From Tychonema sp. LEGE 06208 (GTDB taxonomy: Bacteria > Cyanobacteriota > Cyanobacteriia > Cyanobacteriales > Microcoleaceae): a DNA stretch of 53,995 bases. Below are positions 8,907 through 43,742 of the stretch, in pieces; the stretch's first letter is position 1; every line of letters starts with the position of its first letter. The DNA is taken from positions 1 through 53,995 of the forward strand of contig NZ_JADEWT010000033.1 in assembly GCF_015207505.1 (NCBI RefSeq), read 5' to 3'. A program made the position numbers and the translations under genes. The notes beneath the pieces were generated by a model that ran no database searches, was not told the origin of the DNA, and saw nothing but the letters and a program-made list of their open reading frames with translations.

Positions 8907-9093
8907 AACCGCGAAGACGCAAAGGACGCGAAGGAAGAAAAGAGAAAAAGCGTTAGATTTTTTTAGCAATATGAAAGGCGGAAAGATAGGAAGCTTTGAT
9001 GCTGTGGCCGCAGTTTTTTTCTAGCGCTTCTCCCAAATTTGCTAACAAAGAATTTCTATTCTCTTCTTTCGCGTCCTTTGCGTCTTCGCGGTT
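8907..9093. mobile_element. MITE-like element with 26-bp perfect terminal inverted repeats
   Basis: The 26 bases at 8907-8932 are the exact reverse complement of 9068-9093. They enclose about 135 bp with no coding potential; the whole unit is about 187 bp. The arms carry a gacgcaaaggacgcg core. The architecture resembles a non-autonomous miniature element or a dispersed palindromic repeat. No target-site duplication is obvious and no transposase is present in the window. Confidence 0.55.
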
Positions 9094-9123
9094 CGTTCAA
9101 ATTACTTATATTAAAATGCGAAA

Positions 9124-9261
9124 TTATGCTTGAGTTTCTGCTTCAGTAAAAATAGGCGGCCACAGTTGACAAATTGGCAATTCCCAACCGGGAAAAAGTT
9201 CGGCTACTGTCAAAACATCTTCGTTTCCCAATACAATAGTTTCGCATTCCTGACGGTACTT
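9124..9261 (-). pseudogene. C-terminal gene fragment, possibly Uma2-type nuclease family
   Basis: On the minus strand an open frame of about 45 codons ends with TAA at 9124. Its sequence (VLTVAELFPGWELPICQLW, then a short tail) looks like the C-terminal end of cyanobacterial Uma2-family (PD-(D/E)XK-like) proteins. No start codon or upstream domain is present: the frame is closed by a stop just upstream, and the MITE-like element lies just downstream. I read it as a 3' remnant. The Uma2 assignment is from memory of family C-termini and is tentative. Confidence 0.4.
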
Positions 9262-9421
9262 TTGTGAGAACCGCTATATTGGAGCGATATTTTACTCTGA
9301 AAACCGCAGATTTTCAGCAGATGTAACGCGGATAAACGGAGATGATTTTAAGAAAATTTGGTTGCGAATGCCGTGGGTTTCTTGGAGATTGAAGAATTGT
9401 CTGCGACTGACTGCTGTTTGA

Positions 9422-9751
9422 TTATTCTTTTGCAGAAAAGGAGTTGCCGCAGCTACAGCTTTGGGCTGCATTGGGATTGTGGAACCGGAAACCTCCGCCC
9501 ATCAAGTCTTCTGAATAATCTAAGGTTAGTTGATTGAGATATTTTAAGTGCTGGGGGTCGATCGCTACTTGAATTCCCTCGGACTCGTATACAGTGTCTT
9601 CTGGGCTGGCGGCATCGTCAAATGCCATTGTATAGGATAAACCGGAGCAGCCGCTCGATTCTACGCCCAGACGAAATAAAGCATTGCGGTTTGAATGTTT
9701 TGACTTGAGGCGCTTTACTTCTGTGGCTGCTGTTGGGCTCAGATTAATCAT
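9422..9751 (-). CDS. HesB/IscA/SufA-type iron-sulfur cluster assembly protein
   Basis: This 109-aa A-type carrier binds iron or Fe-S clusters and passes them to apoproteins in the cytosol. The three conserved cysteines are present: Cys35 in SSGCSG and the C-terminal pair Cys99 and Cys101 in SCSCGN. The length is exactly that of the family. The start is ATG at 9751, and its leader runs directly into a 16-unit heptamer array, so any transcript from the upstream cupin gene would carry the repeats. No suf or nif genes are near. Confidence 0.93.
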   Translation of the reverse strand: MINLSPTAATEVKRLKSKHSNRNALFRLGVESSGCSGLSYTMAFDDAASPEDTVYESEGIQVAIDPQHLKYLNQLTLDYSEDLMGGGFRFHNPNAAQSCSCGNSFSAKE

Positions 9752-9755
9752 GATT

Positions 9756-9867
9756 GGTTATTAGTTATTGGTTACTGGTTACTGGTTATTGGTTACTGGT
9801 TACTGGTTACTGGTTACTGGTTACTGGTTATTAGTTACTGGTTATTGGTTACTGATTATTGGTTACT
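9756..9867. repeat. Heptamer array, 16 units of ggttact/ggttatt
   Basis: Sixteen consecutive 7-bp units (ggttact, ggttatt, agttatt, gattatt) lie immediately upstream of the IscA-type gene start. Confidence 0.9.
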
Positions 9868-9877
9868 GATTTGTGCG

Positions 9878-9961
9878 AATAACAAATAACAAACAACAAA
9901 TAACAAATAACAAACAACAAATAACAAATAACAAACAACAAATAACAAATAACAAATAACC
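9878..9961. repeat. Heptamer array, 12 units with 21-bp higher-order period
   Basis: Twelve 7-bp units alternate aataaca, aataaca, aacaaca, giving a 21-bp super-repeat. The array ends ten bases before the stop of the cupin gene. Confidence 0.9.
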
Positions 9962-9971
9962 AGTTAATCAG

Positions 9972-10391
9972 TTACTTGGCTTTTTCGGTGCGGGCGTAAT
10001 CGTCTTGAAAGCGGATAATATCATCTTCTCCGAGATATTCGCCGTTTTGTACTTCAATTAAAATCAGGGGAATAACTCCGGGGTTTTCCAAGCGGTGAGA
10101 AATGCACTGAGGAACGTAGGTAGATTGATTTGTAAACAAAACTTGTTCTGTTTCGCCGCAGGTAACTTTTGCGGTACCGCAAACTACGATCCAGTGTTCG
10201 CTGCGGTGGTGGTGCATTTGCAGGCTGAGGCGGTGTCCGGGTTTAACTTCGATTCGCTTAATTTTATATCCAGGGCCTTCTTCTAGGGTGGTAAACGAGC
10301 CCCAAGGGCGCAATTCTGTAGCGGCTATTCCGTTGGATGCTGCTGATGCCAGCAGAGTAGATATTTGAGAAATTTCTTGAGTTTGAACCAT
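9972..10391 (-). CDS. Mannose-6-phosphate isomerase-type cupin
   Basis: This 139-aa single cupin domain is like the type II mannose-6-phosphate isomerase region of ManC/AlgA proteins. RPWGSF at residues 28-33 and the HHHRSEHW motif at 60-67 (metal-binding histidines and the following Glu) are visible. I chose ATG at 10391 over a longer frame opening at 10484 because it is preceded by a strong aaggag ribosome-binding site about eight bases upstream and matches the family's N-terminus. Stand-alone cupins of this type in cyanobacteria are annotated as mannose-6-phosphate isomerases; the activity (fructose-6-P to mannose-6-P for GDP-sugar supply) is inferred. Confidence 0.85.
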   Translation of the reverse strand: MVQTQEISQISTLLASAASNGIAATELRPWGSFTTLEEGPGYKIKRIEVKPGHRLSLQMHHHRSEHWIVVCGTAKVTCGETEQVLFTNQSTYVPQCISHRLENPGVIPLILIEVQNGEYLGEDDIIRFQDDYARTEKAK

Positions 10392-10753
10392 GATTTTGAC
10401 TCCTTGAGGATTGCTTTCTGAATCCTTTGGTAAACGACGTTGGGTTTTGAGGGCAGCTAATTTGTTGTTAAAATCGCAGCCCACCCGCGCGGACGAGTTA
10501 GCGAACTGTACAGTTTTACCGAGAAATCTTATCAGCCCGATCGACCTGCCTTAACAACCATAGCAAAATTACCCTAGCTACTGTCACCCGGTATGCGATC
10601 GAATTTACCAATCTACATCAACTCTTCACAGAACTTACGCATTTCAACATAATTGTGATTCTATACGCAGTCAAGGCTACGTACATAATCTCACAATTGC
10701 TGTGGATTTAACAAGGGCGATCGCGCCCAGGCCCCGCAAGCTACTGCTTTTTT
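10392..10753. other. Intergenic region with no recognised feature
   Basis: About 360 bp between the cupin start and the end of the DUF5615 gene. I see no coding remnant, repeat array or clear hairpin; the cupin promoter presumably lies here. Confidence 0.5.
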
Positions 10754-11095
10754 TCACATCAAAGGACGGTTAACTCGAATCAATTTACCACTCAAAGTAT
10801 TCAGGGTAGAAATAGCATCATTAATTCGCGTTGCCAGCCTTTCAAAATTCGGGTCTTCCGTGCAAACAACAATACCACTATGGTCAGAGTTTTGAAGGTG
10901 TAATCGCATGAAATGACGGCGATTTCGCGTTAAAACTGTTCGGTAATTGCTTGCAGCAAAAGCTAACACATCTTCGTCAGGAATTTGAAGATTTGCATTC
11001 CCTGCTTCCCTCGCTGTTAATACATCGTGACCCAAAGCCCGTAATAATTCTACGACTGCTAGCGGGAAGTTTTCATCTGTGTAAAAACGTGCCAA
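10754..11095 (-). CDS. DUF5615 PIN-like toxin
   Basis: This 113-aa protein starts ARFYTDENFPLAVVELLRAL and has FAASNYRTVLTRNRRHF at mid-length, with the early Asp/Glu and later Thr/Asn-Arg residues of the DUF5615 (Mut7-C/PIN-like nuclease) family. Members are usually encoded just after a DUF433 protein and are treated as putative ribonuclease toxins. The start is TTG at 11095, three bases after the stop of the DUF433 gene, with a gagg Shine-Dalgarno inside that gene, so translation is coupled. Frame is intact. Toxic activity is inferred from family and operon structure. Confidence 0.85.
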   Translation of the reverse strand: MARFYTDENFPLAVVELLRALGHDVLTAREAGNANLQIPDEDVLAFAASNYRTVLTRNRRHFMRLHLQNSDHSGIVVCTEDPNFERLATRINDAISTLNTLSGKLIRVNRPLM

Positions 11096-11098
11096 CTT

Positions 11099-11446
11099 TT
11101 AATAAACCTCGCTTTCTTCCATAACTTCATCATTTTCTTTAATTGCCTGTTCAATTTCCTCTGGATAAGCATCAGCATAAGCCCAAGCATTTACCAAGTC
11201 AGCGGCGGTTAGATCGGGAAATGATTCTAGGATGATACCATCGGAAGCACCTAAACGTCGATCGCACACCAGTGACCAAACTGGTATGCGAGTATTGCCA
11301 ACACAGGCATCGCCGCCACACACGCCGGGAGTCTTTTTAATGCCTAGAGAACCGTTGGTTAAAGTTTGAAGTAAAATTTCTATAGCGGCTGCTTTGTCGG
11401 CTGAATTTAAGGAGGCTAGATCGATTTTTAATTGGGTGAGTGTCAT
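11099..11446 (-). CDS. DUF433 antitoxin-like protein
   Basis: This 115-aa protein has a short helical N-terminal extension (about residues 1-35) and then the DUF433 winged-helix domain (about 38-100), recognisable by GVCGGDACVGNTRIPVW and the FPDLTAADLVNAWAYA helix. It lies three bases upstream of the DUF5615 gene in the same transcription unit. DUF433 proteins bind DNA and are the presumed antitoxin and autoregulator of the pair. The start is ATG at 11446. Confidence 0.85.
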   Translation of the reverse strand: MTLTQLKIDLASLNSADKAAAIEILLQTLTNGSLGIKKTPGVCGGDACVGNTRIPVWSLVCDRRLGASDGIILESFPDLTAADLVNAWAYADAYPEEIEQAIKENDEVMEESEVY

Positions 11447-11500
11447 TATTTACTATCCCGTTTTTACAGATAGAATATTCTAGCTAAATTATAACGTAAT

Positions 11501-11605
11501 AGGACTTACGCATAGCCCCAGAAACCGGGTTTTTTACAAAAAAACTTCGTTACTGTACACAGATTCGGTAAAAACCCGGTTTCTTTGTCGGAGTCAGTAA
11601 GTCCT
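11501..11605. repeat. Nested palindromic element (9-bp TIR plus inner 16-bp stem)
   Basis: Outer arms aggacttac (11501-11509) and gtaagtcct (11597-11605) enclose a second inverted repeat built on agaaaccgggtttttt (11520-11537) and gtaaaaacccggtttct (11568-11584). The agaaaccgggtttct core recurs near 36.8, 41.85 and 48.2-48.4 kb, so this is one copy of a dispersed palindromic family, possibly MITE-like. It also lies where a terminator of the minus-strand genes upstream would be expected. Confidence 0.7.
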
Positions 11606-11610
11606 GAACT

Positions 11611-11973
11611 TTACTCTATCGGAAAACCAGGAATCAGTCGCTCTATTTCTACCATCAGTTCCATAGTTTCTTTGAGCGCCACCACCACCTTTTGATAGTG
11701 CAGCACATCATCAAAGGACAAAGTGCGTTTGGCTTTTTTGCGGTCTTTCAGCCATTTTTCCAACACCTGATAACCGCCAATTTGAAACTCCCAAACTTCG
11801 GATGCGATGCCTTCAAGATAGTGGGTTTTGTTAATGTAAACTCGTTGTCCTGCAGGTTTATAGGTAACTTCGGTAACGGCATTGTCACCATCGCCATTCA
11901 TTTTAATAATCAGCTTGTTCAGCGGTTGGGAAAAATTGCAGACAATGTATTGCTTAAAGCTATGCACTGACAA
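11611..11973 (-). pseudogene. Orphan C-terminal domain of a type ISP restriction-modification enzyme
   Basis: The 120-aa frame contains the segment common at the C-terminus of type ISP (LlaBIII/LlaGI-like) single-chain restriction-modification proteins: VYINKTHYLEGI, WEFQIGGYQVLEKWLKDR and TLSFDDVLHYQKVVVALKET. In complete proteins of well over 1000 residues this region follows the helicase, methyltransferase and target-recognition parts. Nothing upstream encodes them; a different gene precedes it. It opens at TTG 11973 and overlaps the upstream degraded frame by 14 bases. I interpret it as a truncation remnant; it could still be expressed as a small protein. Confidence 0.65.
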
Positions 11974-12268
11974 TCATAACTTGTTCTCTGGTTGCCATTG
12001 CTAAAATGGCTAAAACTTTGGGAGCTAAAGGCTTCCAATCTGCCAAGCGATTGGATGGTGCTTGCATAACAATGACCGAAATATCGAACTGTGGGAATTT
12101 TTGTGCATAGCGATCGCCCTTAACTACAATCTACGAAATATTCTCATAATAGCGTTGAATATTATCTGCAAAAACCGGAACTTCTTCCCTCAACCTGACA
12201 AGTAATTCATCAACAGTCAGGGGTGGATTTTTCAAATCCTCAACTTGTTTGCTGACTACATTAGCCAT
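11960..12268 (-). pseudogene. Unknown gene with a single in-frame amber codon, third gene of PIN operon
   Basis: An ATG at 12268, immediately after the stop codon of the PIN-domain gene, opens a 102-codon frame that is continuous to TAG at 11960-11962 except for one TAG at 12131-12133 (codon 46). The first part reads MANVVSKQVEDLKNPP and the second includes FDISVIVMQAPSNRLADW, which looks like real protein rather than chance reading. I do not recognise the family. It is either inactivated by one nonsense mutation or makes a 45-residue product. Its position directly after a toxin gene suggests it belongs to that module. Confidence 0.55.
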
Positions 12269-12721
12269 CTAATCCGGTGCAACCTCATAAAGACGATTCA
12301 GAAAAACATCGGGGTGCATAGCTGTAATTCCCCAAGTATTTAAAGACTCTCGTGGAAAATCTCTCAGGTTGGATGTAACAATAACTTGAGCTTTAGCAAC
12401 TACCGCAGCCGCAGAGACATGGCGATCCCCTGGATCGTTAGTCATCTGTTGAATCAAATTCTCTGGAACTTCAACCATTGCATTAGAAAAAGCTGCCTTA
12501 AGTGCAGCCTCAAAACGCGCCGCCCTCTCACTTTTCATCCTTCCAGTATTAACAAGATTGCGAGTTGCACCGTCTAAAATTTCTTGCGACCAATATAAAT
12601 CATACAACCCAATCTCCGCAGCACGAAATAGCGTATCGCGCAAGTGCATAGGAAATATCACGCAGGAATCCAAAACAACAGGATAAGGAATCAACCTGCT
12701 AGCTGTATACTCTGGTCTCAT
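12269..12721 (-). CDS. PIN-domain protein, VapC-like toxin
   Basis: This 150-aa PIN-domain protein carries the expected acidic residues: Asp18 in VVLDSC, Asp96/Asp99 in NDPGDRH, and the TSNLRDF motif ending in Asp121. PIN toxins are metal-dependent RNases. The frame overlaps the upstream antitoxin gene by 23 bases, typical of coupled toxin-antitoxin genes. An alternative start a few codons downstream cannot be excluded. Toxin function is inferred from the operon; the PIN fold assignment is fairly secure. Confidence 0.82.
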   Translation of the reverse strand: MRPEYTASRLIPYPVVLDSCVIFPMHLRDTLFRAAEIGLYDLYWSQEILDGATRNLVNTGRMKSERAARFEAALKAAFSNAMVEVPENLIQQMTNDPGDRHVSAAAVVAKAQVIVTSNLRDFPRESLNTWGITAMHPDVFLNRLYEVAPD

Positions 12722-13178
12722 GCAATTCCTCTTCTTGGCTAAACTCAGCTAATTCCTTGAGAATTTCACGGCGCTTAACACTGCGCTGCTGTTTGTACGC
12801 GATCGCACTTGCCAAACTAATCCGTCGCTGATTTCCTACTTTTCCATAGGCAATTTCCCCGTCATCGAGCAATTTGACCACAAATTCTGGTGACACATTC
12901 AGCAAACTAGCAGTTTCTTCAACAGTCATATCTTGCTCAATTGGCACTAAAGATACTGCTTTACCAGCCGCCATCAAATGTGTGGCTTGACACAACAATT
13001 GATAGAGAGATTCAGGAACTGCGATTTCTTCCCCGCCCACTTCCACAAGTTTTACTTTTAATGTCTCAGAATCACCCTTTTCTGTCTTGAGAGATAGCAT
13101 TTTATCCAACAACTTGATAGCTATTGTTTCTGCTTCTGTCGGCAAAACCGGATCTAGGAGTATTTTTTGCCCGTTCAT
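12699..13178 (-). CDS. Excisionase-family helix-turn-helix antitoxin
   Basis: This 159-aa protein has an N-terminal region with an IAVPESLYQLLCQA segment and a C-terminal MerR/excisionase-type DNA-binding domain (about residues 86-130: MTVEETASLLNVSPEFVVKL, then DGEIAYGKVGNQRRI). Proteins of this architecture are paired with PIN toxins in many bacteria, and the 23-bp overlap with the PIN gene supports this. The start is ATG at 13178 and the leader faces gltB divergently. Confidence 0.82.
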   Translation of the reverse strand: MNGQKILLDPVLPTEAETIAIKLLDKMLSLKTEKGDSETLKVKLVEVGGEEIAVPESLYQLLCQATHLMAAGKAVSLVPIEQDMTVEETASLLNVSPEFVVKLLDDGEIAYGKVGNQRRISLASAIAYKQQRSVKRREILKELAEFSQEEELHETRVYS

Positions 13179-13543
13179 GAAAATGTTTCCTGAATAAGTT
13201 TAATGGTATTATAATAATGATGCAAGATGTCAGTTGACATCCTAATTATTTCTCTCCCTTCTCTGACTCTGCGTTCTCTGCGTTCTCTGCGGTAAAAAAA
13301 TCATTCCAATCTAGACGCGCTAATAATTAGATATTTTTTCAGCATAAATATTTAGCCCGGAGTTCCTAACACTTAACTCATCGGTTATAAATATTTTTGC
13401 ACGATCGATCGCACCAGCAATAATTTTTTCCTGCATCTACCCAATGCAGTAAATCTATATATAATACATCATACTAGATCGATCGCCATCCCACGCTCTG
13501 CTCTAGATCGCAATTTTTTGATCACTTTGAGAGACTTATCCAA
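13179..13543. promoter_or_regulatory. Divergent intergenic region before gltB
   Basis: About 365 bp separate the minus-strand PIN operon from gltB. It contains a short ctctgcgtt repeat tract (13262-13294) and an AT-rich stretch (13320-13480) suitable for promoters. I looked for an NtcA site (GTA-N8-TAC) and did not find a convincing one. No open frame of interest. Confidence 0.4.
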
Positions 13544-16500
13544 ATGAATAGCAACGGACTGCCAGCAAAACAAGGCCTTTACGATCCGCAGTTCGAGCAC
13601 GACGCTTGCGGAGTCGGGTTCATCGTACACATGAAAGGAAACAAATCCCACGAAATCGTCGAACAGGGACTAACAATCCTGCTGAACCTCGACCACCGGG
13701 GGGCCTGCGGCTGCGAACCCAACACCGGAGACGGAGCGGGAATTTTGATGCAAGTGCCGCACAAATTCATGAAAAAAGTAACGGCGGCCCTCAACATCCA
13801 ACTTCCAGAAGCCGGCGAGTACGGAGTTGGCGCGATTTACTCATCGCCAAATCAGACGGAACGGGAAAACGGCCAGCGCATATTTGAGGAAATCGCGGCA
13901 GAAGAAGGCCAGGAAGTGCTCGGCTGGCGCGAAGTTCCCACAGACAACTCATCCCTGGGCGACACCGCCAAATCTAGCGAACCCTTCATGCAGCAAGTGT
14001 TCCTCCGGCGCGCCGCAGGTATCGACGAGGCTGCCTTCGAGCGGAAACTGTACGTCATCCGCAAACGCGCTCACAACGCCATCCGCAGGACGGAAGTAGA
14101 CCCCTATTGGTATAATTCCACACTCTCCTGCCGGACGATCGTCTATAAAGGTATGTTAATGCCCGTGCAAGTGGGAGATTACTATCCCGAACTGCACGAC
14201 CCCGACATGGAAAGCGCTCTAGCCCTAGTTCACTCGCGCTTCAGCACCAATACTTTTCCGAGCTGGGAACGATCGCACCCTTACCGGTACATCGCCCACA
14301 ACGGCGAAATCAACACCATGCGCGGCAACATCAACTGGATGCACGCGCGGCAATCCTTGTTCGAGTCGGAGTTGTTCGGAGACGATTTAAAGAAAATCCC
14401 GAATTTAATCAACATCGAAGGTAGCGACTCGACAATCTTTGACAACGCTTTGGAATTGCTATATTTGGCCGGGCGTTCTTTACCCCACGCCGTAATGATG
14501 ATGATTCCCGAACCTTGGACGGCCCACGAGTCCATGAGTGACGAGAAAAAAGCTTTCTACGAATACCATTCCTGCTTGATGGAACCTTGGGACGGCCCGG
14601 CTTCCATAGCATTTACCGATGGTACATCGATCGGCGCAGTGCTCGATCGCAACGGTTTGCGCCCTTCCCGCTACTGCGTCACCAAAGACGACTTAGTAAT
14701 TATGGCATCCGAAGCCGGAGTTTTGCCGATCGCCCCAGAAAGAATCCTATCAAAAGGCCGCCTGCAACCGGGGCGGTTGTTCCTAGTAAATACTGAGGAA
14801 GGCCGCATCGTTTCTGACGAAGAAATTAAGACCAAAATCGCCACAGAACACCCGTACCGCCAGTGGATTGACCAGCACATGGTCGAGATTGCCAAACTCC
14901 CAGATGCGCCAGCAGTCGCAGAATCCGACCCCGAAACATTGATCCAGCGCCAAATGGCCTTTGGCTACACCTTTGAAGAACTGCGGTTGCTGTTAGCGCC
15001 GATGGCAACAAACGGCGTGGAAGCTGTCGGGGCGATGGGCGCGGATACGCCGCTAGCCGTGCTTTCCAACAGACCAAAGCTGCTTTACGAATACTTCCAG
15101 CAACTGTTTGCTCAAGTTACCAATCCGCCGATCGATTCGATCCGCGAAGAAATTGTCACTTCTGCCGAAACGACGATCGGCGCTGAAGGCAATTTGCTCA
15201 AACCGCAACCGGAAAACTGTCATTTAATCGAACTGAAAACACCAATTCTCAGCAATGAAGAATTGGCCAAACTCAAACAGGTAAATACAGGTAATTTCCG
15301 CTCTACTACACTGCCAATTTTGTTCGACCCAAAAACCGGAGTAAAAGGTCTAGAACAGGCATTAGAAGATGTATTTGCAGCCGCAGATAGCGCGATAGCC
15401 TCTGGGGTGAATATCATCATTTTGAGCGATCGGGGTATCAGTCCAGACAAAGCCCCAATTCCGGCGCTGCTGGCAGTTGCGGGCCTGCACCACCACTTGA
15501 TCCGTCAAGGTACGCGCACGCGGGCGGGACTCGTTCTCGAATCCGGCGAACCGCGAGAAGTGCACCATTTTGCAACTTTAATCGGCTATGGTTGCGGTGC
15601 AATTAATCCCTATTTGGCCTTCGAGACGATCGCCGATTCGATCAAACAAGGTTTGCTGCTAAATGTCGATTACAAAACAGCTTGCAAAAACTACATCAAA
15701 GCCGCCACCAAAGGCGTGACCAAAGTTGCCTCAAAAATCGGGATTTCCACAATTCAAAGTTATCGCGGCGCGCAGATTTTTGAAGCAATTGGCTTGAACA
15801 AATCCGTAGTCGATAAATACTTTGCTTGGACAGCTTCCCGGATTGAAGGTGTAGACTTGGAAGTCATCGCCCGAGAAGCAATTTTGCGCCACACCCACGC
15901 CTTCCCCGAACGCCCCAGCAGCGGACATACTCTCGATGTCGGCGGCGAATATCAGTGGCGAAAAGAAGGCGAGGCGCATTTGTTTAGCCCGCAGACAATT
16001 CACGCGCTACAACAAGCAGTTCGCGAAGGAAGTTACCCGCTTTTCCAAAAGTATTCCGCCCTGGTAAACGAACAAAACCAGCAGCATTTTACCTTGCGCG
16101 GTTTGTTGCAATTCAAGCAGCGGGAATCAATCCCGATTGAGGAAGTCGAACCCGTAGAATCTATTCTCAAACGCTTCAAAACTGGGGCGATGAGTTACGG
16201 TTCAATTTCCCAAGAAGCCCACGAATCTTTGGCTGTAGCGATGAACCGGATTGGTGGTAAATCGAACACTGGTGAAGGCGGCGAAGATCCGGAAAGATAT
16301 ACTTGGACAAACGATCGCGGCGACTCGAAAAACAGCGCGATCAAACAAGTTGCTTCCGGGCGTTTCGGCGTTACCAGCTTGTATCTTTCCCAAGCCAAGG
16401 AACTGCAAATCAAGATGGCGCAGGGGGCAAAACCCGGAGAAGGCGGACAGTTACCGGGTAAAAAAGTATACCCGTGGATTGCGAAAGTACGGAACTCGAC

Positions 16501-30420: not shown

Positions 30421-30798
30421 ATGACTCAAAATTTAGAAGCCAGCCAACTTTCGTTAAATGACGTTTGCCGCCTTCTCAAACTGGAAGAACGAGAAGCAGA
30501 TGCCTGGAACGATTTTTTCTATCGGGAACCGCTGAGTGAATTTGAACAGCAGCAACTCTTGCAAATCAGCAATGACTTTTGGGGATACCTAGAAGTGGGG
30601 AAGGTTTAGGAATAATTGGTTAAGTTTTTATCACTTTCACCGTTGATGAGATTAACGGAATTTTTTAAAGTTCCTGTTGTGCTGACAATGGAAGATAGGA
30701 TTCCGATCTAAGTTTAAGATGGAGATACTTTGATTAAAGGGCGGTTGGATATTTTCACTGTGAATTGGCCGGAGGCGGAGATTGGGACGGCAAAGTAG
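30421..30798 (+). pseudogene. Decayed cyanobacterial restriction-endonuclease-like gene
   Basis: The first 62 codons (QLSLNDVCRLLKLEEREADA, EFEQQQLLQISNDFWGYLEV) match the N-terminus of a common cyanobacterial endonuclease-like protein. After TAG at 30607 the same frame continues with recognisable family sequence: LSPLMRLTEFFKVPVVLTME and LIKGRLDIFTVNWPEAEIG, interrupted by further stops (TAA after GAA at 30613, then TAA at 30712 and 30718), ending at TAG 30796. The nuclease core and C-terminus are missing. Inactivation by several nonsense changes plus 3' deletion is clear. Confidence 0.7.
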
Positions 30799-31062
30799 AC
30801 TTGAGTTGCAGAAGTCACGGGATTGATACATAAACCGCAGATTTCTGGTAGATCAATACTGATTTAGGCAGATAATTTTAGGGTATTTTCCGATTTTTTA
30901 AATTAAATGCTACTGATGTCTGCAGTCAAAATCGAAACTTTCAAAAGCCCGATCGCCCGCAACCCCTTGTCAACTCCTCGAATCCGCGTCGCAACATTGA
31001 AATAAGATTAACAAAAGTTCGATCGCGCGCAAGTACCAAAAAATCGGCAAGGAGTCGCACCA

Positions 31063-32268
31063 GTGGCAGAGGGAGAAGGCACACCAACACCAACACAGAC
31101 AGACAATCGGGACTATTCCTGGCCATTTTGGCCGATCGTCCCCATATATCCCTACGGCAAGCGGCGCACCATCCGCAAAGAAATAGTCAAAGACAAAATC
31201 TGGACTTTTGACCAACTGCAAGGCATTTTCTACGTGATTGTGCCGGTGCGGATGACGGTTATTAAACTAGAATCCCAAGGCCTTCTAGTCTACGCCCCCG
31301 TCGCACCGACTCGCGAGTGCATCCGCTTGCTAAACGAGTTAGTAGCAGAGCACGGCGAAGTTAAGTATATTTTGCTGACAACCGGTTCCGGCATCGAGCA
31401 CAAAGTGTTTGTCGGCCCGTTTGCGAGGTTTTTTCCCGCAGCGCAGGTGTTTGTCGCCCCGCAGCAGTGGAGTTTCCCCATAAATTTGCCCCTGAGTTGG
31501 CTGGGTTTGCCGGCAAAACGCACCTCTGTACTGCCCCGTGACAGCAGCAACACCCCCCTAGCAGGTGAATTTGACTGGGCAATCCTAGGCCCGATCGACC
31601 TCGGTTTGGGCCGCTTCGCTGAAGTTGCCTTATTTCACAGGCAGTCGCGCACGCTGATGGTAACAGATTCCGTCGTTTCCATTCCCGAAAACCCGCCCGC
31701 GATTCTCCAACTCGACTCCTACCCGCTGCTGTTTCACGCCAAAGACACCGCATCGGATGTGGTGGCAGACACCGAGGAAAATCGGCGTAAAGGATGGCAG
31801 AGAATCGCCTTATTTGCCATGTATTTTCGCCCCAGCGTGCTGGAAGTGCCGCCCTGGTCGGGGGTGTTTGACAGAGCTATCAAAGCGCCAGAACGCTCTA
31901 GAAAAGCTTATTTTGGGTTGTATCCGTTCCAGTGGAAACCTGGTTGGGCGCGATCGTTCGAGGCTTTGCGGGGTGGAGGGCGGTTGTTGGTTGCGCCGGT
32001 TTTGCAGGCTTTGATTCTCAACCGCGCGCCGAGGGAAACTCTCGATTGGGCGGATCGAGTCGCGAGTTGGGATTTTGAGAGGATTGTACCTTGTCACTTC
32101 GATCGCGCGATCGACTCCCGCCCCCGCGAATTTCGGCAAGCATTCTCGTTTCTAGAAAAATACTCGCCTGTTAATTCTTTACCCGAAGATGATTTAAAAT
32201 TGCTCAGGGATATTGATGCCGGTTTGAATAAAACGGGTTTAGTTCCGCCTGCAAAAGACAAGGTTTAA
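31063..32268 (+). CDS. DUF4336 protein (metallo-beta-lactamase-fold-like)
   Basis: The 401-aa protein belongs to DUF4336, conserved in cyanobacteria and plants, with a degenerate metallo-beta-lactamase-like fold: LLVYAPVAPTRECIRLLNEL, GEVKYILLTTGSGIEHKVFV, FFPAAQVFVAPQQWSFPINL and, near the C-terminus, FERIVPCHFDRAID. The function is not established. The start is GTG at 31063, with aaggag about eight bases upstream. It is a single gene, convergent with the metallophosphoesterase. Confidence 0.9.
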   Translation: MAEGEGTPTPTQTDNRDYSWPFWPIVPIYPYGKRRTIRKEIVKDKIWTFDQLQGIFYVIVPVRMTVIKLESQGLLVYAPVAPTRECIRLLNELVAEHGEVKYILLTTGSGIEHKVFVGPFARFFPAAQVFVAPQQWSFPINLPLSWLGLPAKRTSVLPRDSSNTPLAGEFDWAILGPIDLGLGRFAEVALFHRQSRTLMVTDSVVSIPENPPAILQLDSYPLLFHAKDTASDVVADTEENRRKGWQRIALFAMYFRPSVLEVPPWSGVFDRAIKAPERSRKAYFGLYPFQWKPGWARSFEALRGGGRLLVAPVLQALILNRAPRETLDWADRVASWDFERIVPCHFDRAIDSRPREFRQAFSFLEKYSPVNSLPEDDLKLLRDIDAGLNKTGLVPPAKDKV

Positions 32269-32341
32269 TGGGATAGTTACGGACGCATTTTGACCCAAAA
32301 AACCGGTTTTTTTAGGCAGCATCTGAGTTTTGCATTTAATG

Positions 32342-32369
32342 ATAGTGCGATCGTCCCCGCTCGCACTAT
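32342..32369. terminator. Stem-loop between convergent genes
   Basis: atagtgcga (32342-32350) pairs with tcgcactat (32361-32369) around a short C-rich loop. It lies about 75 bp after the DUF4336 gene and before the end of the convergent metallophosphoesterase gene. Terminator function is inferred. Confidence 0.45.
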
Positions 32370-32516
32370 AATAAATACAAAAAATGTTTTTACCATGTAG
32401 CAAATGCTCCTGTTTATTATTTAATTTGGGGCGATTGCGAAGGATTTGTGTAAAAAATCAGGTTTATGAATGCAGGTTTCCGAGCTAAATTTGTCCCAAG
32501 TTGCAACCACACAAAC

Positions 32517-34301
32517 TCACGATTTTTTCAACTTAAATTCATCAAATTTTACAACATTTGACTTGGGTTTCCGCGTATCAAAATAATAGCTGCTAACCGT
32601 ACCGTTCCCAGTTTCAAAAATACTGAAAGCCGTAAGATCGTTGCTCTCAATATACGGCAGCGGCAGCCCGGTTTTCCCCAACAAAGGCGCTACAGTCGGC
32701 ACCACAGGTTCCAATCCGTTCGGGTCTCCAATAGCGCTGTAATCCTCCCGATATGCCGGCGGCACAAATCGGCGCTTTTCCCCTACAAACGCACCGTAAC
32801 TGTTGCCTACATTAGAAGTCTCTAAAAAGTGCATTCCAGTCGAACTCACAAACCGATTCCACAAATGCGAGTGTCCGTACAATACCAACTGCACGCCCGC
32901 TGTTTCTAGCAGCGGCACCACATCCCGAATAAGATAATCTTGCTGTTTCGGATATTCGTAACGCACCATCTTAATCTCGCCATCCTCAGTGCGATCGACT
33001 ATTTGTACCGGGTCAGTATAAGCAGGTACAATATTGTCGCCGAGAGAATGCGGCGGGTAGTGAAACATCACAATTTTATATTTTGCCTGCTGAAATTGGA
33101 CACTGTTTAATTCTTTTTCCAGCCAAGTATATTGATCGCTGCCCTTGACAATTGGCTCGAAAATATGCTGTCCGTATCCCCATTTTTCGGGACGGTCAAA
33201 ATCTTCGTCCCGTTCCCGATACCTGCCTCTGGCCTCCGGGTCTAAATTCGGAGTCCGCCAGATATTTGTAACATACAAAGTCACTAACCGCACGTCTCCA
33301 AAAGTCACGGCATAATAATTTTGGTCGCTTGGTAAGCTAAAAATTTCGTTGTAGGTATCGCTGTTAAAACTATTATTTTTTAACAAAATATCTTTATTTT
33401 TTACCCCATATTTTTGAGTGAGGTATGGATATATTTTCTGGACTGCAGCGCGGGGGAAAGAGTCGTTAAACTGGTCGTTCAGGGTGCTGGTAGTTGAAAA
33501 CCTCCCCATGATTTCATGGTTCCCAATTGCCGGAAATAAGGGCGCGTGCTGGATCAGTTCGCCGCCGCCGTACACTGTTTTGATGCCGTTTTTGTCGAGT
33601 TCCGAGAAGGCGCGGCCTTGCAAAGCGGGGAAAAAGGCGCGCCCTCGGTAGTCGTCGAACCATTCGGAAGCGCGATCGGCTATATTAATTAAATCCCCAG
33701 CCATGAAAACCGCGTCAACTTTATCAATTGTTTCTGTTACTTTCTGGAGATTGGCTGCTGTCATCGGCATCAATTGATGGTCGGAAGTGAGAAGAATTTT
33801 GAGGGGTATTCCTGCTGCTGGTGTCGGAGAAAGTGTAAAAACTTTGCTGCTGACAGATGTGCCGTCTTTTTTGTAGCTGGTTACTAGATAAGGAATCCGC
33901 ACATCGGGCGTTAAATTGCGGACTTCTGCTTCGTGCCGCCAGATGTCGCGCACAATGGGATTGTTGTTAGTTATTCCCTGTTTCATTTCATCGGGAATTT
34001 GCGAGTCTTTGTCTTCTCTGGTGCGGCTTAGCTTGGTAGTATTTGCTGCGGCAGTTTTATTTAAGTTTTTTCCGTAAGTAACAGTGTTTCTAGTACCTAG
34101 AAACTCGGTAAACCAAACAACTCGCACCGAGTTGGCTGTGGGAAATTGCAGAAACGGGTCGGTTAAAAGTTGGGGTTTGTTGAAGAATGATTGTACAATC
34201 AAACTTAGTAAGAGGACAATTAAAATCAAAACAGCAAAAAACCACAGGTTGCGAGAAGAACCTTGGGAAATTTCTGATTTATCGGGTAAGGGTGTTAACA
34301 T
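32517..34301 (-). CDS. Membrane-anchored calcineurin-like metallophosphoesterase
   Basis: The 594-aa protein has one N-terminal transmembrane segment (about residues 20-42, LWFFAVLILIVLLLSLIVQS) and then a purple-acid-phosphatase-like arrangement: a fibronectin-type N-domain (about 50-165), then a metallophosphatase core with ILLTSDHQLM (170-179), VDAVFMAGDLINIADR, PAIGNHEIMG, IVMFHYPPHS and LVLYGHSHLWNR. The first motif has Asp-His in place of the usual Asp-x-His (DHQ), worth noting. The catalytic domain is presumably periplasmic. The substrate is unknown. Start ATG 34301. Confidence 0.85.
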   Translation of the reverse strand: MLTPLPDKSEISQGSSRNLWFFAVLILIVLLLSLIVQSFFNKPQLLTDPFLQFPTANSVRVVWFTEFLGTRNTVTYGKNLNKTAAANTTKLSRTREDKDSQIPDEMKQGITNNNPIVRDIWRHEAEVRNLTPDVRIPYLVTSYKKDGTSVSSKVFTLSPTPAAGIPLKILLTSDHQLMPMTAANLQKVTETIDKVDAVFMAGDLINIADRASEWFDDYRGRAFFPALQGRAFSELDKNGIKTVYGGGELIQHAPLFPAIGNHEIMGRFSTTSTLNDQFNDSFPRAAVQKIYPYLTQKYGVKNKDILLKNNSFNSDTYNEIFSLPSDQNYYAVTFGDVRLVTLYVTNIWRTPNLDPEARGRYRERDEDFDRPEKWGYGQHIFEPIVKGSDQYTWLEKELNSVQFQQAKYKIVMFHYPPHSLGDNIVPAYTDPVQIVDRTEDGEIKMVRYEYPKQQDYLIRDVVPLLETAGVQLVLYGHSHLWNRFVSSTGMHFLETSNVGNSYGAFVGEKRRFVPPAYREDYSAIGDPNGLEPVVPTVAPLLGKTGLPLPYIESNDLTAFSIFETGNGTVSSYYFDTRKPKSNVVKFDEFKLKKS

Positions 34302-34957
34302 AAGTTATTAGTTATTAGCTTGTAGGAAAGAGTTTCACCGGATAAATAGAAATCCCAACCCAAATACATCTAAACCTGCCTTGAAAAAAATAAACTGCCA
34401 ACGCTATCAAAAAGTTGAAAAATCAGTAAAATATCTCACATATAACAAACCTCAACCATCTTTTCACATCTTCTCATCTCTGCATTCCCTTTCTCTGCAT
34501 TCTCTTTCTCTGCGCCCTCTGCGTTCTCTGCGGTTCATAAAAAAAATACTTTGCACAAATTATTTAGACTTGCTACACACAAATCTTACCACCATCTGAC
34601 ACCTAAAATATCAAATAGAACAGACGGTTTATGGGTTGTAAAAGTTGGCAGGTTTCAAAGAGGAAGATGCTGAGGTTTTGTGTTCTATCGCGGTAATTTT
34701 TCGGATGGCGCAGGCTGTCAACAATCCCCAAAAAAAGTTCGCGGAATGGTGCCCAAGTCTATTTTGCCGGAGGTAAAAATTTGTGAGCGCCAACTCTGAG
34801 GTAGTATGATAGCACGCGACTGACTAAACAAGCTCGATCGCGATCGCACGAATTACACAAATTTATCACTGCGGTGGGTCGATCGCGATCGCACAAGCGT
34901 TAAAAATTCAGCTTAAGATTGGGATAAGCTGCAAATTTTATCTCAATCGAACTCAGC
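34302..34957. other. Gene-free region with ctctgcgtt-type repeats
   Basis: About 650 bp. Positions 34478-34535 hold a tctctgcattctcttt/ctctgcgtt tandem tract like those at 13.27 and 30.26 kb. Positions 34833-34890 contain two copies of cgatcgcgatcgcac, overlapping HIP1 sites. Around 34735-34793 a short open stretch reads KVRGMVPKSILPEVKICERQ, possibly a gene remnant, but I cannot place it. Confidence 0.5.
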
Positions 34958-35242
34958 ATGAAAAACCACACTGACGATTTTGCCAAACAGGATTTAGTCG
35001 ATCGGGCTTTTGGAAGTCCAAACATCCCCGATCCCACAGCGTGGGTAGACGAACATTATTTTCTAGCTAATTTCGCCAATACTCTGGCCCACCTTCAAGA
35101 ACATTTATCAGATGACAGTCGAGAAATCGGCGAGAGTGGCGACTCTGGCGAAGCGAGATTGTCGATCGACGGTAAAATTAGAGATATGTTGAAAGCTACT
35201 TTTAGCGATGACTGCTGGCAGTATGTCGAAGGTTTATTGTGA
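34958..35242 (+). CDS. Hypothetical protein
   Basis: A 94-aa, acidic, probably helical protein (DDFAKQDLVDRAFGSPNIPD, YFLANFANTLAHLQEHLSDD). I do not recognise a family. The start ATG 34958 has no strong ribosome-binding site. It is isolated between the metallophosphoesterase and galT, both on the other strand. Confidence 0.55.
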   Translation: MKNHTDDFAKQDLVDRAFGSPNIPDPTAWVDEHYFLANFANTLAHLQEHLSDDSREIGESGDSGEARLSIDGKIRDMLKATFSDDCWQYVEGLL

Positions 35243-35481
35243 GTTGGGTCAACTTGTACCTCGATCGCTTTAGATCGCAAACTAAGCTGTACTGCATTTC
35301 AATTGTACATTAGACCAGATTGCAAAAATCCTCAACTCTTCAGGAAATTATTTGCGTCGATCTCGGTTGATTTGCTTGAAATGTGCGATCCTGTGACTTA
35401 TGCCAGAGATGATTAAAACTCATCAAATCATCTGCTGTCTTGACCTCGGACATTTTTAAAATCCTTGTGATTTATTATACT

Positions 35482-36507
35482 TTAGGTTTCTCGTAAATTA
35501 AGGTCGTCAGGAATTTTAATCGATCGCAAAAACTCGGCACTTTCCTCCGGCAAAGCACTATTGATAAACATCCCGCTACCCAACTCAAACCCAGCCTGCT
35601 TCGTGACTCTGGGAATAATTGCGATATACCAATGAAAGTATTTGGTTCCTTGTTCGGCAGTGGGAACCGAGCGAATACTATAATTATAATCTGGATCGTT
35701 CAATCCGTAATAAAGCTGAGCGAGTACAGTTTTCAAAGTATCAGCAAGACCAATAATTTCCTCATCAGTAATATCATCAAACGAAGACGAATGCCGACGC
35801 GGAAAAATCCAAATATGAAAGGGCGAAAGTGCAGCAAAAGGGATACAAGCGACAAAATCTTTGCTTTCAAAAATTACTCTTTCACGCGCCGCCAACTCAT
35901 CTTCCAAAGTCCGGCAAAACAAACATTCTCCAGTGTCGTCAAAATATCTAATAGCTTCGTCTATCCGCCTGCGAAATTGGTTAGGCACAACGGGCGTAGC
36001 TGCTATTTGCGAGTGAGGATGTTCGATAGAAGTTCCGGCAGTTGGGCCGTGATTTTTAAAGATCACAATTGTTTCAATATAAGGATATTTTCTAATTTCT
36101 AAATAGCGCTGGCGGTATACTAAAAGTATGCTGGCAACTTCTTCAACGGTCAACAAAGCAGTAGTCAAATCATGTCGCGGGTGTTCGACAATTACTTCGT
36201 GAATGCCGATTCCCGACATCGTGCGGTAAATTCCTGATGATATCCTGAGCCGTTCTGCTGTCGGGGAGAGGGCGGGATATTTGTTAGCCATCGATCTGAC
36301 TTTCCAGCCAGCGTTCTCATCCCTCAAACGGCAAGTTTCTAAGGTTCCGTCTTCTTCGTTTCCCACGCAAAACGGGCAATCGGTACGGTATGGCGGCAGT
36401 GCTACAATGGATTTTTTTGTGTTAGCAAATTCGTCCGGTCTTTTTGCCCGTTCGGTGGCGATGATTACCCAATCTCTGGTAATTAGATTTTGTCTAAGTT
36501 CAGACAT
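35482..36507 (-). CDS. galT: Galactose-1-phosphate uridylyltransferase
   Basis: The 341-aa HIT-superfamily nucleotidyltransferase exchanges UMP between UDP-glucose and galactose-1-phosphate. The active-site motif is EHPHSQIAATPVV (the first His of HPH is the likely nucleophile); paired Cys motifs CPFCVGNE (residues 46-53) and CLFC likely bind zinc, and FHIWIFPRRHSSSF plus HWYIAIIPR complete the family pattern. Related enzymes act as ADP-glucose phosphorylases, so the substrate is not certain. No galK or galE is adjacent. Start ATG 36507. Confidence 0.88.
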   Translation of the reverse strand: MSELRQNLITRDWVIIATERAKRPDEFANTKKSIVALPPYRTDCPFCVGNEEDGTLETCRLRDENAGWKVRSMANKYPALSPTAERLRISSGIYRTMSGIGIHEVIVEHPRHDLTTALLTVEEVASILLVYRQRYLEIRKYPYIETIVIFKNHGPTAGTSIEHPHSQIAATPVVPNQFRRRIDEAIRYFDDTGECLFCRTLEDELAARERVIFESKDFVACIPFAALSPFHIWIFPRRHSSSFDDITDEEIIGLADTLKTVLAQLYYGLNDPDYNYSIRSVPTAEQGTKYFHWYIAIIPRVTKQAGFELGSGMFINSALPEESAEFLRSIKIPDDLNLRET

Positions 36508-36757
36508 TTTATTACTTTAATTTAGAAGGTTTAATCGTTTTCAAGTATAAATAAAAACTTGCCTTATGTCAGTACCTACTTGCGGATATTTAATAAATCT
36601 TGATATTGAGGTGGGAAGGTATTAAAGAGATGGTGATGAATAAAGTTAACTAGAGCAATAGTGAATTGCCAACAATTATGATAAAATAGATTCATCGCCA
36701 CAGCTAGGAACTAATCTATGGTTCTCCAAATTAATCCCGCGAAACAAGAACCGGGGG

Positions 36758-36825
36758 CAGAGAAACCGGGTTTTTCACCTAATTAGTCGGCCCAAACCAA
36801 ATATGTTCCCAAACAACCCGGTTTC
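36758..36825. repeat. Palindromic agaaaccgggttt element
   Basis: agaaaccgggttttt and aacccggtttct face each other about 40 bp apart, another copy of the dispersed family seen at 11.5 and 48.2-48.4 kb. It lies just downstream of the cas2 remnant. Confidence 0.6.
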
Positions 36826-36850
36826 TCAACCTCCGAGTGCATAATTTTAT

Positions 36851-37077
36851 CTAAAAAATTATTGCCCATTCCTCCCAATGTTTCTCAGAACTGTAAGTAA
36901 TAGTCCGCCTCACCGAACCCGCATCCAAAACATAAATACACACCGAATCCTCCACCTGCTTAATCAACATTTAAATCTTCTGCTGAAGCTTCACAAAGTC
37001 AAAAAATACTCAAAAACACTGTACTGCGTCCACCTTCGGTATCCACACAGCAACTTGTGCAGCCTAGTCCGCCGCTT
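36851..37077 (-). pseudogene. cas2: cas2 remnant, frameshifted
   Basis: Reading the minus strand from 37077 gives KRRTRLHKLLCGY and WTQYSVFEYFLT, the central region of Cas2, in one frame until a stop near 36991. The Cas2 continuation FVKLQQKI, then (after TAA at 36971-36973) MLIKQVEDSVCIYVLDAGSV and RRTITYSSEKHWEE, ends at TAG 36851 in another frame. Cas2 is the non-catalytic Cas1 partner in spacer acquisition. About the first 15-20 residues are missing, there is one frameshift near 36995 and one internal stop. It is fused directly to the cas3 remnant. Confidence 0.85.
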
Positions 37078-37409
37078 GGGGAGCACCAGCGGAGACTGTT
37101 AGCGAGGGTTCTGAGGGACACAACATAGATGAGTTTTTCGGGAGAATCGAGGTTGAGAGATTGGCTGAAGAGAAAAAGGGCGATCGCACTTTCAGTTTTT
37201 CCCGAACCCGTCGCCGCCCTCAGCAGCACATTTTCGCGGTTGAGGATTTGGCGGATTGTTTCTATTGGGAATTGTCGGGGTTGAAATCCAGTCAGGGCGC
37301 GAAAGTATTCGTTGATGTCAGTATCTGTATAGAATGTCTTCAGGGGCAAAAATCCCGTTTGTGCGATCGCGCACAGAAGCTGATATAATCCTAAGTTTCT
37401 GTACGCCAT
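37078..37409 (-). pseudogene. cas3: cas3 helicase remnant, N-terminal part only
   Basis: From ATG 37409 the frame encodes about 107 residues of a CRISPR-associated helicase N-terminus: DINEYFRALTGFQPRQFPIE (Q-motif-like), LLRAATGSGKTESAI (Walker A) and IYVVSLRTLANSLR (motif Ia). Just after NSLR the sequence changes to cas2 in a different frame; the open frame itself runs on to 36999. Full Cas3 helicases exceed 700 residues. The abrupt join of a 5' cas3 piece to a 3' cas2 piece on the same strand is what an internal deletion of a type I cas operon would leave. The subtype cannot be determined. Confidence 0.82.
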
Positions 37410-37440
37410 ATTATATCCGCTCAACTACCATAATAAAAAC

Positions 37441-37499
37441 GGTTTGTAGTCAGGACTTTAGTCCGCATCAATGCGAGCACTTTAGTCCTCATTACAAAC
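37441..37499. repeat. Inverted repeat, gtagtcaggactttagtcc family
   Basis: ggtttgtagtcaggacttta and its near-complement (actttagtcctcattacaaa) form a hairpin upstream of leuB. The same family recurs at 42.74-42.81 and 44.86-45.02 kb. Confidence 0.7.
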
Positions 37500-37573
37500 T
37501 AATTTTATGACGATCGTGCGAGCAGATATAATATAATTCCTCAAGAATCTACAATCAAAACCCCAAAATTGAT

Positions 37574-38659
37574 ATGACTCAAAACTACCGCATCACTCTT
37601 TTGCCGGGAGACGGCATCGGCCCGGAAATTATCGCTGTAGCGGTAGATGTCCTGAAACTTGTCGGCAAACAATTGGACATCGGCTTTGAATTTCAAACAG
37701 CATTAATAGGCGGCGCTGCTATTGACGCAACAGGCAATCCGCTGCCCGAAGAAACTATGGAAAAATGCCGCAACAGCGATGCAGTATTACTAGCAGCCAT
37801 CGGCGGTTACAAGTGGGATAATTTGCCGCGCGAACAGCGCCCGGAAACAGGATTATTAGGAATGCGCGCCGGATTGGGATTGTTTGCAAATTTGCGTCCT
37901 GCAACTATTTTACCGCAATTAGTCGATGCTTCTTCCTTAAAAAAAGAAGTTGTCGAAGGCGTTGATATTATGGTAGTCCGCGAACTTACAGGCGGCATTT
38001 ATTTCGGCAAACCCAAAGGCATTTTTGAGACAGAAACCGGGGAAAAACGCGGTGTAAATACAATGGCTTACACCGACTCGGAAATTGACAGAATCGGGCG
38101 AGTCGCTTTTGAGACTGCCAGGAAGCGCGGAAAAAGGCTATGTTCCGTTGATAAAGCGAATGTTTTGGATGTTTCGCAACTGTGGCGCGATCGCATCATT
38201 TCCCTTTCCCAAGAATACCCTGATGTCGAACTTTCTCACCTCTACGTTGACAACGCAGCAATGCAGTTAATTCGCTGGCCAAAACAGTTCGATACCATAG
38301 TCACCGGCAACTTATTCGGCGACATCCTTTCCGACGCGGCAGCGATGTTAACTGGTAGTATTGGAATGCTACCTTCTGCTAGTTTAGGAGCAAGCGGGCC
38401 TGGAGTTTTTGAACCAGTGCACGGTTCCGCGCCGGACATCGCCGGACAAGATAAAGCAAACCCCATCGCTCAAGTTTTAAGCGCGGCAATGATGTTGCGC
38501 TATGGGTTAAATCAGCCAGAAGCTGCTAATAAAATCGAGCAAGCAGTTATCAAAGTTTTGGATAAAAATTACCGCACGGGCGATATCATGTCAGAAGGCA
38601 TGAAACAGGTCGGTTGTCGGGCGATGGGCGATGCTTTAATTGAAGTTTTGCAAGGTTAA
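37574..38659 (+). CDS. leuB: 3-isopropylmalate dehydrogenase
   Basis: The 361-aa enzyme catalyses the NAD-dependent oxidative decarboxylation of 3-isopropylmalate in leucine synthesis. Typical features: [11 protein letters not shown] at residues 9-19, the substrate-binding arginines in LRPATIL and the [12 protein letters not shown] segment, the [14 protein letters not shown] metal-binding stretch with its aspartates, and the NAD-binding [14 protein letters not shown]. The length is standard. The start ATG 37574 has no strong Shine-Dalgarno. It is convergent with the pyrF-pyrE gene. Confidence 0.97.
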
Positions 38660-42827: not shown

Positions 42828-43742
42828 TTACTTGCACATGATCAAATTTCCAGCCGAGATAAATCCCGGAACAGGCCCTGAAATCTCAACCCAGTTGCGG
42901 TTTTCTCCATTCTTGTCTTTCACTAACTGGAAATTCGGCACAAGCGTTACTTGACCGTTAGCTGCTACGCCACCTTTAATCGCAGAAGTCTTTGAAGGCT
43001 CGGTGCGAATAGCCAGACCCTTGGGCGCTACCCGAGGTTCTACCTGGCGGCACAGACTGACGGGGCCTGTCGCTGCGGGCGCTGGTGTCGCTGCGGGCGC
43101 TGGTGTCGCTGCGGGCGCTGGTGTCGCTGCGGGCGCTGGTGTCGCTGCGGGCGCTGGTGTTGGTGCGGGCGCTGGTGCGGGTGCTGGTGAGGGCGCTGGT
43201 GCGGGCGCTGGTGAGGGCGCTGGTGCGGGCGTTGGTGCGGGCGTTGGTGCGGGCGCTGGCGTTGGTGCTGGCGCTGGCGCTGGTGCCGGTGCTGGTGCGG
43301 GCGCTGGACTTGGGGAAGGATTTTGACTAATTGTGCAGGAAGCTATATTAGCCTCGTTGTTGGGGTATCCGGTAGCAATGTATCCTTTTACCGGAGAGGT
43401 AATTTGAATCCAGAGGCGACCGTCGGAGGCTTTAACAGAAGTGGCACCTTGGAACAGTGTTATCTGAGTATTCATTGCTACACCGCCAACTCTTGGGGAT
43501 TTGGGGTCTGGGTTCTGACGAACGGTCAAACCTTCTTTGGGAGTGACTTTGCGGCAAAGGGGGCCAGTTTGGGCTATTTCAAAGGTGGCGCTGTTTTCAA
43601 AGGAAATATTTTCAGCATCCTGACTGGTGGTGGATATTGGTGGGGCAGCATGACCGATCGCCTGAGCCTGCAAACTTCCGGCTACAAGTGCGATCGCGCC
43701 CAGCAATACAGCGGGCTTGTTCCAGCAATTCAAGTTTTTCAT
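42828..43742 (-). CDS. Exported protein with two SH3b-like domains and a Pro-Ala linker
   Basis: The 304-aa protein has a signal peptide (residues 1-28, AVLLGAIALVAGSLQAQAIG), a bacterial SH3-like domain (about 60-137: CRKVTPKEGLTVRQNPDPKS, WIQITSPVKGYIATGYP), a linker of about 85 residues composed almost wholly of Pro-Ala with Ser/Thr (141-226), and a second SH3-like domain (229-304: CRQVEPRVAPKGLAIRTEPS, WVEISGPVPGFISAGNLIMC). SH3b domains bind peptidoglycan or proteins in the periplasm. The linker is coded by near-perfect tandem DNA repeats, so its length is probably variable between strains. Start ATG 43742. Confidence 0.85.
   Translation of the reverse strand: MKNLNCWNKPAVLLGAIALVAGSLQAQAIGHAAPPISTTSQDAENISFENSATFEIAQTGPLCRKVTPKEGLTVRQNPDPKSPRVGGVAMNTQITLFQGATSVKASDGRLWIQITSPVKGYIATGYPNNEANIASCTISQNPSPSPAPAPAPAPAPAPAPTPAPAPTPAPTPAPAPSPAPAPAPSPAPAPAPAPTPAPAATPAPAATPAPAATPAPAATPAPAATGPVSLCRQVEPRVAPKGLAIRTEPSKTSAIKGGVAANGQVTLVPNFQLVKDKNGENRNWVEISGPVPGFISAGNLIMCK
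43075..43313. repeat. Tandem repeats (18-bp and 6/12-bp) coding the Pro-Ala linker
   Basis: On the plus strand gcgggcgctggtgtcgct is repeated about four times exactly, followed by irregular gcgggcgctggt/gttggt units. Long open frames seen on the opposite strand here are composition artefacts. Confidence 0.9.

Follow-up and report, generated by a model that had tools for sequence, protein, structure and literature searches.

A decaying cas3–cas2 remnant of a type I CRISPR-Cas operon beside leuB in Tychonema sp. LEGE 06208, and a Cas3 helicase encoded by two genes in related loci

The remnant between galT and leuB

The window, by which we mean the whole stretch of 53,995 nucleotides analysed here, is contig C159 of the 6.55-Mb draft genome of Tychonema sp. 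LEGE 06208. Beside leuB it carries, on the minus strand, pieces of two CRISPR-associated genes: the 5′ end of a cas3 gene with its leader, and a remnant that spans most of a cas2 gene (Table 1). A sequence-only reading of this DNA had proposed that the start of cas3 is joined to cas2 within a few bases, and DNA comparison bears this out: homology to cas3 ends at 37089 and homology to cas2 begins at 37078, with approximately 10 bp between them. No microhomology was seen at the junction when the alignment was inspected by eye. Further along the window, positions 42828–43742 hold a 304-residue ORF with a long proline-alanine repeat tract.

Table 1. Features of the window, and examples of split cas3 genes at loci in other genomes. 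Positions in the last four rows are those of the locus named.
Feature	Position	Strand	Description	Basis
Inversion, left breakpoint	30797..30951			relatives' homology ends at 30791-30796 and restarts at 30952
Inverted block	30952..36752		DUF4336 gene, phosphoesterase-like ORF, small ORF, galT	orientation of the block against its flanks in relatives
Inversion, right breakpoint	36753..36851		dispersed repeat between cas2 remnant and galT upstream region	repeat copies; galT-side homology starting at 36752
cas2 remnant	36852..37078	-	codons KRRTRLHKLL to stop, with both lesions	identity to G021 C96 and G042
Deletion junction	37079..37088	-	bases placed in neither gene; some may derive from cas2	alignments to both breakpoints
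cas3 5′ end	37089..37395	-	leader and first 85 codons (coding part 37343-37089)	DNA identity to G021 C246; DEAD and Cas3 profile matches
Insertion, ~121 bp	37396..37516		MITE-like in appearance, with terminal inverted repeats; separates leuB from cas3	comparison with G042, G021 and G006
leuB	37574..38659	+	fixed neighbour for synteny and tree	TIGR00169 above cut-off
Split cas3, L035	1395-4074		cut between RecA1 and RecA2	
Split cas3, L078	7135-9814		cut between RecA1 and RecA2	
Split cas3, L098	4647-7456		cut between RecA1 and RecA2	
Split cas3, L161	12980-15641		cut between RecA1 and RecA2	

In DNA searches, the cas3 piece is 88% identical over 307 bp to contig C246 of a relative, G021 (E 1e-107), and in profile searches its 85-residue translation matches Pfam DEAD (4e-8) and PADLOC Cas3a1 (1.2e-8). 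The cas2 remnant is 85% identical over 237 columns to contig C96 of the same relative (E 3.5e-72), and 84% identical to a second one, G042. At the protein level, a 26-residue stretch of it free of stops reaches 23.9 bits with the Pfam Cas2 model (cut-off 23.8), and a six-frame Cas2 search of the whole genome finds a match at the scar (E 5.6e-4; 22.9 bits, slightly below the cut-off). Taken together, the DNA and profile matches of the two pieces therefore exclude chance. The frameshift and internal stop that had been read in cas2 are both present, the former as a 10-bp deletion and the latter as an in-frame TAA.

By comparison with the relatives, the cas3 piece is most likely what is left of the first gene of a cas3 pair, the one encoding the RecA1 lobe. 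It had been described as intact-looking, and this is true of its reading frame: no stop interrupts the first 85 codons, which continue to the end of an ORF of 141 residues. However, the start codon, predicted to be GTG in three relatives, is CTG in the window, and one proline has been lost from each of two motifs, which we take to be Walker A and VPLR, both prolines being invariant in the same three relatives. Selection on the piece is also relaxed, as described below. An open frame of this kind could in principle still yield a short, RecA1-like product of use to the cell, but these changes make that highly improbable, as does the finding that 14 of the 20 window-specific codon changes in the cas3 piece alter the protein, with changes spread nearly evenly over the codon positions.

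The intact operon, its probable deletion and the inversion

Relatives were sought by DNA in 39 genomes and by cas8 in 29 genomes of the same genus, the window's own genome being counted in each. The latter search found cas8 in three of the 29, namely G021, G042 and G014, which are, with the compared stretches identical, Tychonema sp. LEGE 07203, Microcoleus sp. LEGE 07076 and a MAG labelled Richelia sp. CSU_2_1. In G042 the full operon lies on a single contig, with cas3 first and cas2 last; the order is a pyrF-pyrE ORF, leuB, cas3 (two ORFs, from 7135), cas8, cas7, cas5, cas6, cas4, cas1, cas2 (ending near 16461), 46 repeats from 16800, and a DUF4336 gene. Here cas6, cas4 and cas1 were named by profile, and cas5 by its likeness to the G014 cas5, which matches Cas5a. 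In G021 the operon is spread over two contigs, one with leuB, cas3, cas8 and cas7 and the other with cas4, cas1, cas2, 121 repeats and the DUF4336 gene; cas5 and cas6 fall in the gap. An operon with its array, for which the sequence-only reading had looked to related strains, is present beside leuB in both genomes. The breakpoints of the window correspond to G042 positions 7389 and 16225, and the missing segment (7390–16224) measures 8,835 bp.

We put at about 94% the probability that the scar descends from an ancestral type I operon at leuB by one deletion of roughly 8.8 kb, together with a separate inversion with array loss, and is now a decaying remnant. In the ancestor of a small clade of the genus, a type I locus with I-A-like effectors, I-D-like cas6, cas4, cas1 and cas2, and an array would have occupied the space between leuB and the DUF4336 gene. 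In the lineage of the window, a single deletion would have brought codon 85 of cas3 up against the beginning of cas2. Loss of the leader and array would have gone along with a separate rearrangement, an inversion of 5.8 kb that ends on one side directly beyond cas2, and the remaining pieces would be dead and decaying. One internal deletion from cas3 to cas2 of a type I operon, followed by more decay, was also what the sequence-only reading had proposed, and the complete operon of G042 strongly supports it. We infer the order of these events, and also that the middle of the operon went in one deletion and not by piecemeal decay.

Two other origins of the junction were weighed. The pieces might be fragments that were transferred or recombined separately and came to lie side by side, rather than the two ends of one operon; dispersed repeats do flank the scar, and its neighbourhood has been rearranged. 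This is very improbable, because the pieces keep the operon's native strand and order at the same site beside leuB as in G021 and G042, and the leuB side is continuous into the cas3 leader. Slightly less probable still is an assembly artefact, in which two stretches of a draft genome of 232 contigs were wrongly joined. Against this, the cas8 search found no cas8 in this genome, no cas7 of the DevR family was found, and the only cas1 and cas4 found are those of a type I-D locus. Moreover, the cas2 piece bears lesions of its own, and both pieces are 12–16% diverged from the relatives' genes.

The flanks of the scar had been noted to be free of an array, and this was confirmed. The array repeat of the lost system is absent from the window at up to 3 mismatches and also with 24 or more of 37 bases matching, and it is absent from the genome at up to 3 mismatches. 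A derived inversion explains this absence. In G001 the gene order is left flank, galT, small ORF, phosphoesterase-like ORF, DUF4336 and leuB; the window has the left flank and leuB placed alike, with the galT–DUF4336 block reversed. In G019, G004, G008 and G021, too, parts of the block run opposite to the window when oriented by the left flank (alignments of at least 110 bp), and by parsimony over these four and G001 the orientation in the window is the derived one. The inversion covers approximately 30.95–36.75 kb (5.8 kb), with breakpoints at 30.80–30.95 kb and 36.75–36.85 kb, and a repeat at about 36753–36840 has copies in G019, G014 and G009 among the matches listed.

The right breakpoint of the inversion lies just past the cas2 stop, where the leader and array start in G021 and G042, and the left breakpoint is next to the DUF4336 side, at which the array of both genomes terminates and to which the far end of the lost array would have been carried. 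Because the derived inversion ends just past cas2, the array was lost together with the inversion or after it. In G021 and G042 the galT block does not adjoin DUF4336, and the comparison thus recovers the clade's ancestral arrangement only in part.

Decay, clade history and the remaining type I-D system

Over the cas3 and cas2 codons combined, dN/dS is 0.69 on the window branch (bootstrap 0.36–1.5) versus 0.20 for the intact pair (0.08–0.47). The order of the two values is reversed in a fraction of 0.0115 of the bootstraps for the combined codons, 0.0175 for cas3 alone and 0.17 for cas2 alone. The cas2 codons by themselves do not separate the window from the intact pair, and the signal of relaxed selection thus rests mostly on cas3. 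The remnant is evolving nearly neutrally. The proposal that the scar dates the loss survives in a crude form: if dN/dS jumped from 0.20 to 1.0 at the loss, some 60% of the branch would postdate it, a weak date with an interval reaching from 20% to all of the branch.

The genus was screened for traces of the operon with cas8 and over at most 1500 bp on the upstream side of leuB, a scope that would miss scars at other sites. Of the 29 genomes, 28 gave leuB (G017 yielded a distant paralogue only and was left out), and a midpoint-rooted tree of this single gene, with 28 rows, places the five genomes with a trace (the window, G021, G042, G006 and G014) in one clade (100/99). G006 has a different scar of the same locus upstream of leuB (L068, L038), in which the leuB–cas3 interval and about 85 bp of cas3 coding sequence are followed by one array repeat. 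G014 retains about 90 bp of the leuB–cas3 interval at leuB, and its operon is located elsewhere in the genome. Since the five form one clade, one arrival followed by repeated decay fits, and one arrival with at least two independent losses is the simplest account.

Between leuB and cas3 the window has a dispersed 121-bp insertion, which is present at the same site in G042 and absent from G021 and G006. Being common to the window and G042 and not to G021, it conflicts with the pairing of G021 with G042 in the leuB tree (83/97). As a cause of the loss it was rejected, since G042 carries it and yet has an intact operon.

Decayed CRISPR loci in general retain partial cas genes without an array. 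The scar is alike in this respect; here, the intact form at the same site in relatives gives both breakpoints. Taken alone, the scar is an ordinary loss of a CRISPR locus, if unusually well documented. Intact, deleted and differently deleted forms occur in one small clade, which lets one read the breakpoints and, in part, the sequence in which decay proceeded. No titles on this locus were found among the titles and abstract openings searched.

The sequence-only reading had also taken the scar to mark the loss of CRISPR immunity in the lineage, and this part did not stand. Contig C1 of the same genome encodes Cas2, Cas1d, Cas6, Csc1, Csc2, Cas10d, Cas3′ and Cas4, with 130 repeats. Because this complete type I-D locus remains, immunity appears not to have been lost, one of two systems being gone. 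Loss of the operon was likely tolerated through redundancy, because a complete type I-D system was kept. The loss of one system, then, need not equal the loss of immunity.

The lost system and its probable two-gene Cas3

The kind of system lost was judged from the proteins of relatives, with PADLOC models compared against those of G014, save Cas8 and Cas7, which were taken from G021. The effector proteins resemble type I-A. The best match of the G021 Cas8 is Cas8a (5.1e-32), with no Pfam match for this protein and no NCBIfam match for the G014 Cas8; the G014 Cas5 matches Cas5a only; and the G021 Cas7 matches a generic type I Cas7 best, with Cas7a also among its matches. Both halves of the relatives' cas3 find their best PDB match in the Cas3 helicase of 7tr8 and 7r2k, which we take to be type I-A structures. 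Two tested features of type I-A are missing, however. There is no separate Cas3″ HD nuclease gene, the HD domain lying instead at the C-terminus of the second cas3 gene, and the relatives' Cas7 reaches 74.4 bits with the NCBIfam Cas7/Csa2 model, below its cut-off of 212.6, passing for the wider DevR family (93.3 versus 67.3). The HD domain on the second gene is above the Pfam cut-off in L098 and below it in G021 and L096; the second gene of pANACY.01 matches NCBIfam cas3_HD at 1.2e-8, also below the cut-off.

The relatives differ from type I-A further in a helicase cut between the RecA lobes and in adaptation genes that match I-D models. Their Cas1 exceeds the Cas1d cut-off of 385 (403 in G014, 399 in G042), and I-D models are best for the G014 Cas1, Cas2, Cas4 and Cas6. 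In contrast to type I-D, no match to Cas10d, Csc1 or Csc2 was found among the scanned operon proteins; in the window's own genome these three are on the other locus. On these profile matches, the lost system would be I-A-like with an I-D-like adaptation module. A comparable set in a cyanobacterium, cas6, cas3, cas8a, cas7, cas5, cas1 and cas2, is given for subtype I-A of Microcystis in an excerpt of PMC4428289, but that excerpt lists one cas3 and no cas4. The same operon was also seen on plasmids, directly behind RAMP and Csx19 CRISPR genes, in Anabaena pANACY.01 (typed conjugative) and Planktothrix p3 (stretch read to cas6) (L161, L162).

In G021 and G042, cas3 consists of two ORFs of 214 and 692 residues. 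A survey with a profile of the first ORF (E ≤1e-40), in which seven candidates were scored per genome and counts are lower bounds, found relatives in at least 5 of 386 genomes of the phylum and at least 33 of 388 of the order, with four genomes in both. A contig scan with the 85-residue cas3 piece as query found no relative; the scan with cas8 as query gave eight loci, one of which (L094) is without a cas3 half beside cas8. The survey hits and two named loci from the cas8 scan make up 36 loci, five of which (G329, G363, G661, G558 and G667) were dropped because one half was broken, cut short or beyond the contig. Within this I-A-like family, cas3 is split at 20 of the 31 readable loci and a single ORF at 11, the latter including G564, with one ORF of 809 residues that ends early and was counted as fused.

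At the 20 split loci, counted from the start codon closest to the conserved beginning, the ORFs overlap by 14 or 20 nt in 13 cases and are apart in seven, by 2 nt to more than 300 nt. In all 20, motifs that we take to be Walker A, DELH and TAT are on the first protein, and those that we take to be QRxGRCAR and HDLGK are on the second; the second gene of Calothrix L095 is shorter at its end (638 residues) and matches in two pieces. One Cas3 profile of 358 positions covers both genes of pANACY.01 (Anabaena cylindrica PCC 7122), with positions 2–175 on the first and 204–355 on the second; in the record these are annotated as two whole genes, one as a DEAD/DEAH box helicase and the other as cas3. 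The halves from G021 cover 2–201 and 234–352 of the solved Cas3 7tr8. In six cyanobacterial plasmid records that contain the first half, its label is DEAD/DEAH box helicase five times and putative RNA helicase once. Across nine close pairs, dN/dS is 0.03–0.24 for the first half and 0.12–0.29 for the second, and both halves are under purifying selection.

Ribosomal frameshifting was rejected as a general account of the split, since the ORFs do not overlap at seven of the 20 loci. Decay common to G021 and G042 was rejected as its cause because the split recurs in other genera and purifying selection acts on both halves. On a tree of 29 rows, from which the distant fused G434 and G467 were left out, the split label requires three changes, a number as low as this being reached in 1 of 500 shuffles. 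G014, which is fused, branches as sister to G021 and G042, both of them split, and so either G014 re-fused its genes or the other two split independently as a pair.

Known Cas3 splits part the helicase from the HD nuclease (PMC10212523), and Cas3 in two subunits is described for some I-B systems in a passage that does not give the cut site (PMC5965380). No titles on a Cas3 cut between the RecA lobes were found in searches of the open-licence literature.

We lean, with some reserve, towards the view that this cyanobacterial family makes its Cas3 helicase as two proteins cut between the RecA lobes. The first would carry Walker A, DExH and motif III, and the second the RecA2 lobe and the HD nuclease; the ATPase would need their assembly, perhaps on the target-bound effector. 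If this is true, assembly from two proteins would put an additional safety lock on the destruction of DNA. The split Cas3 is more surprising than the scar and matters more: a helicase core spread over two conserved genes would change the picture of how Cas3 is activated.
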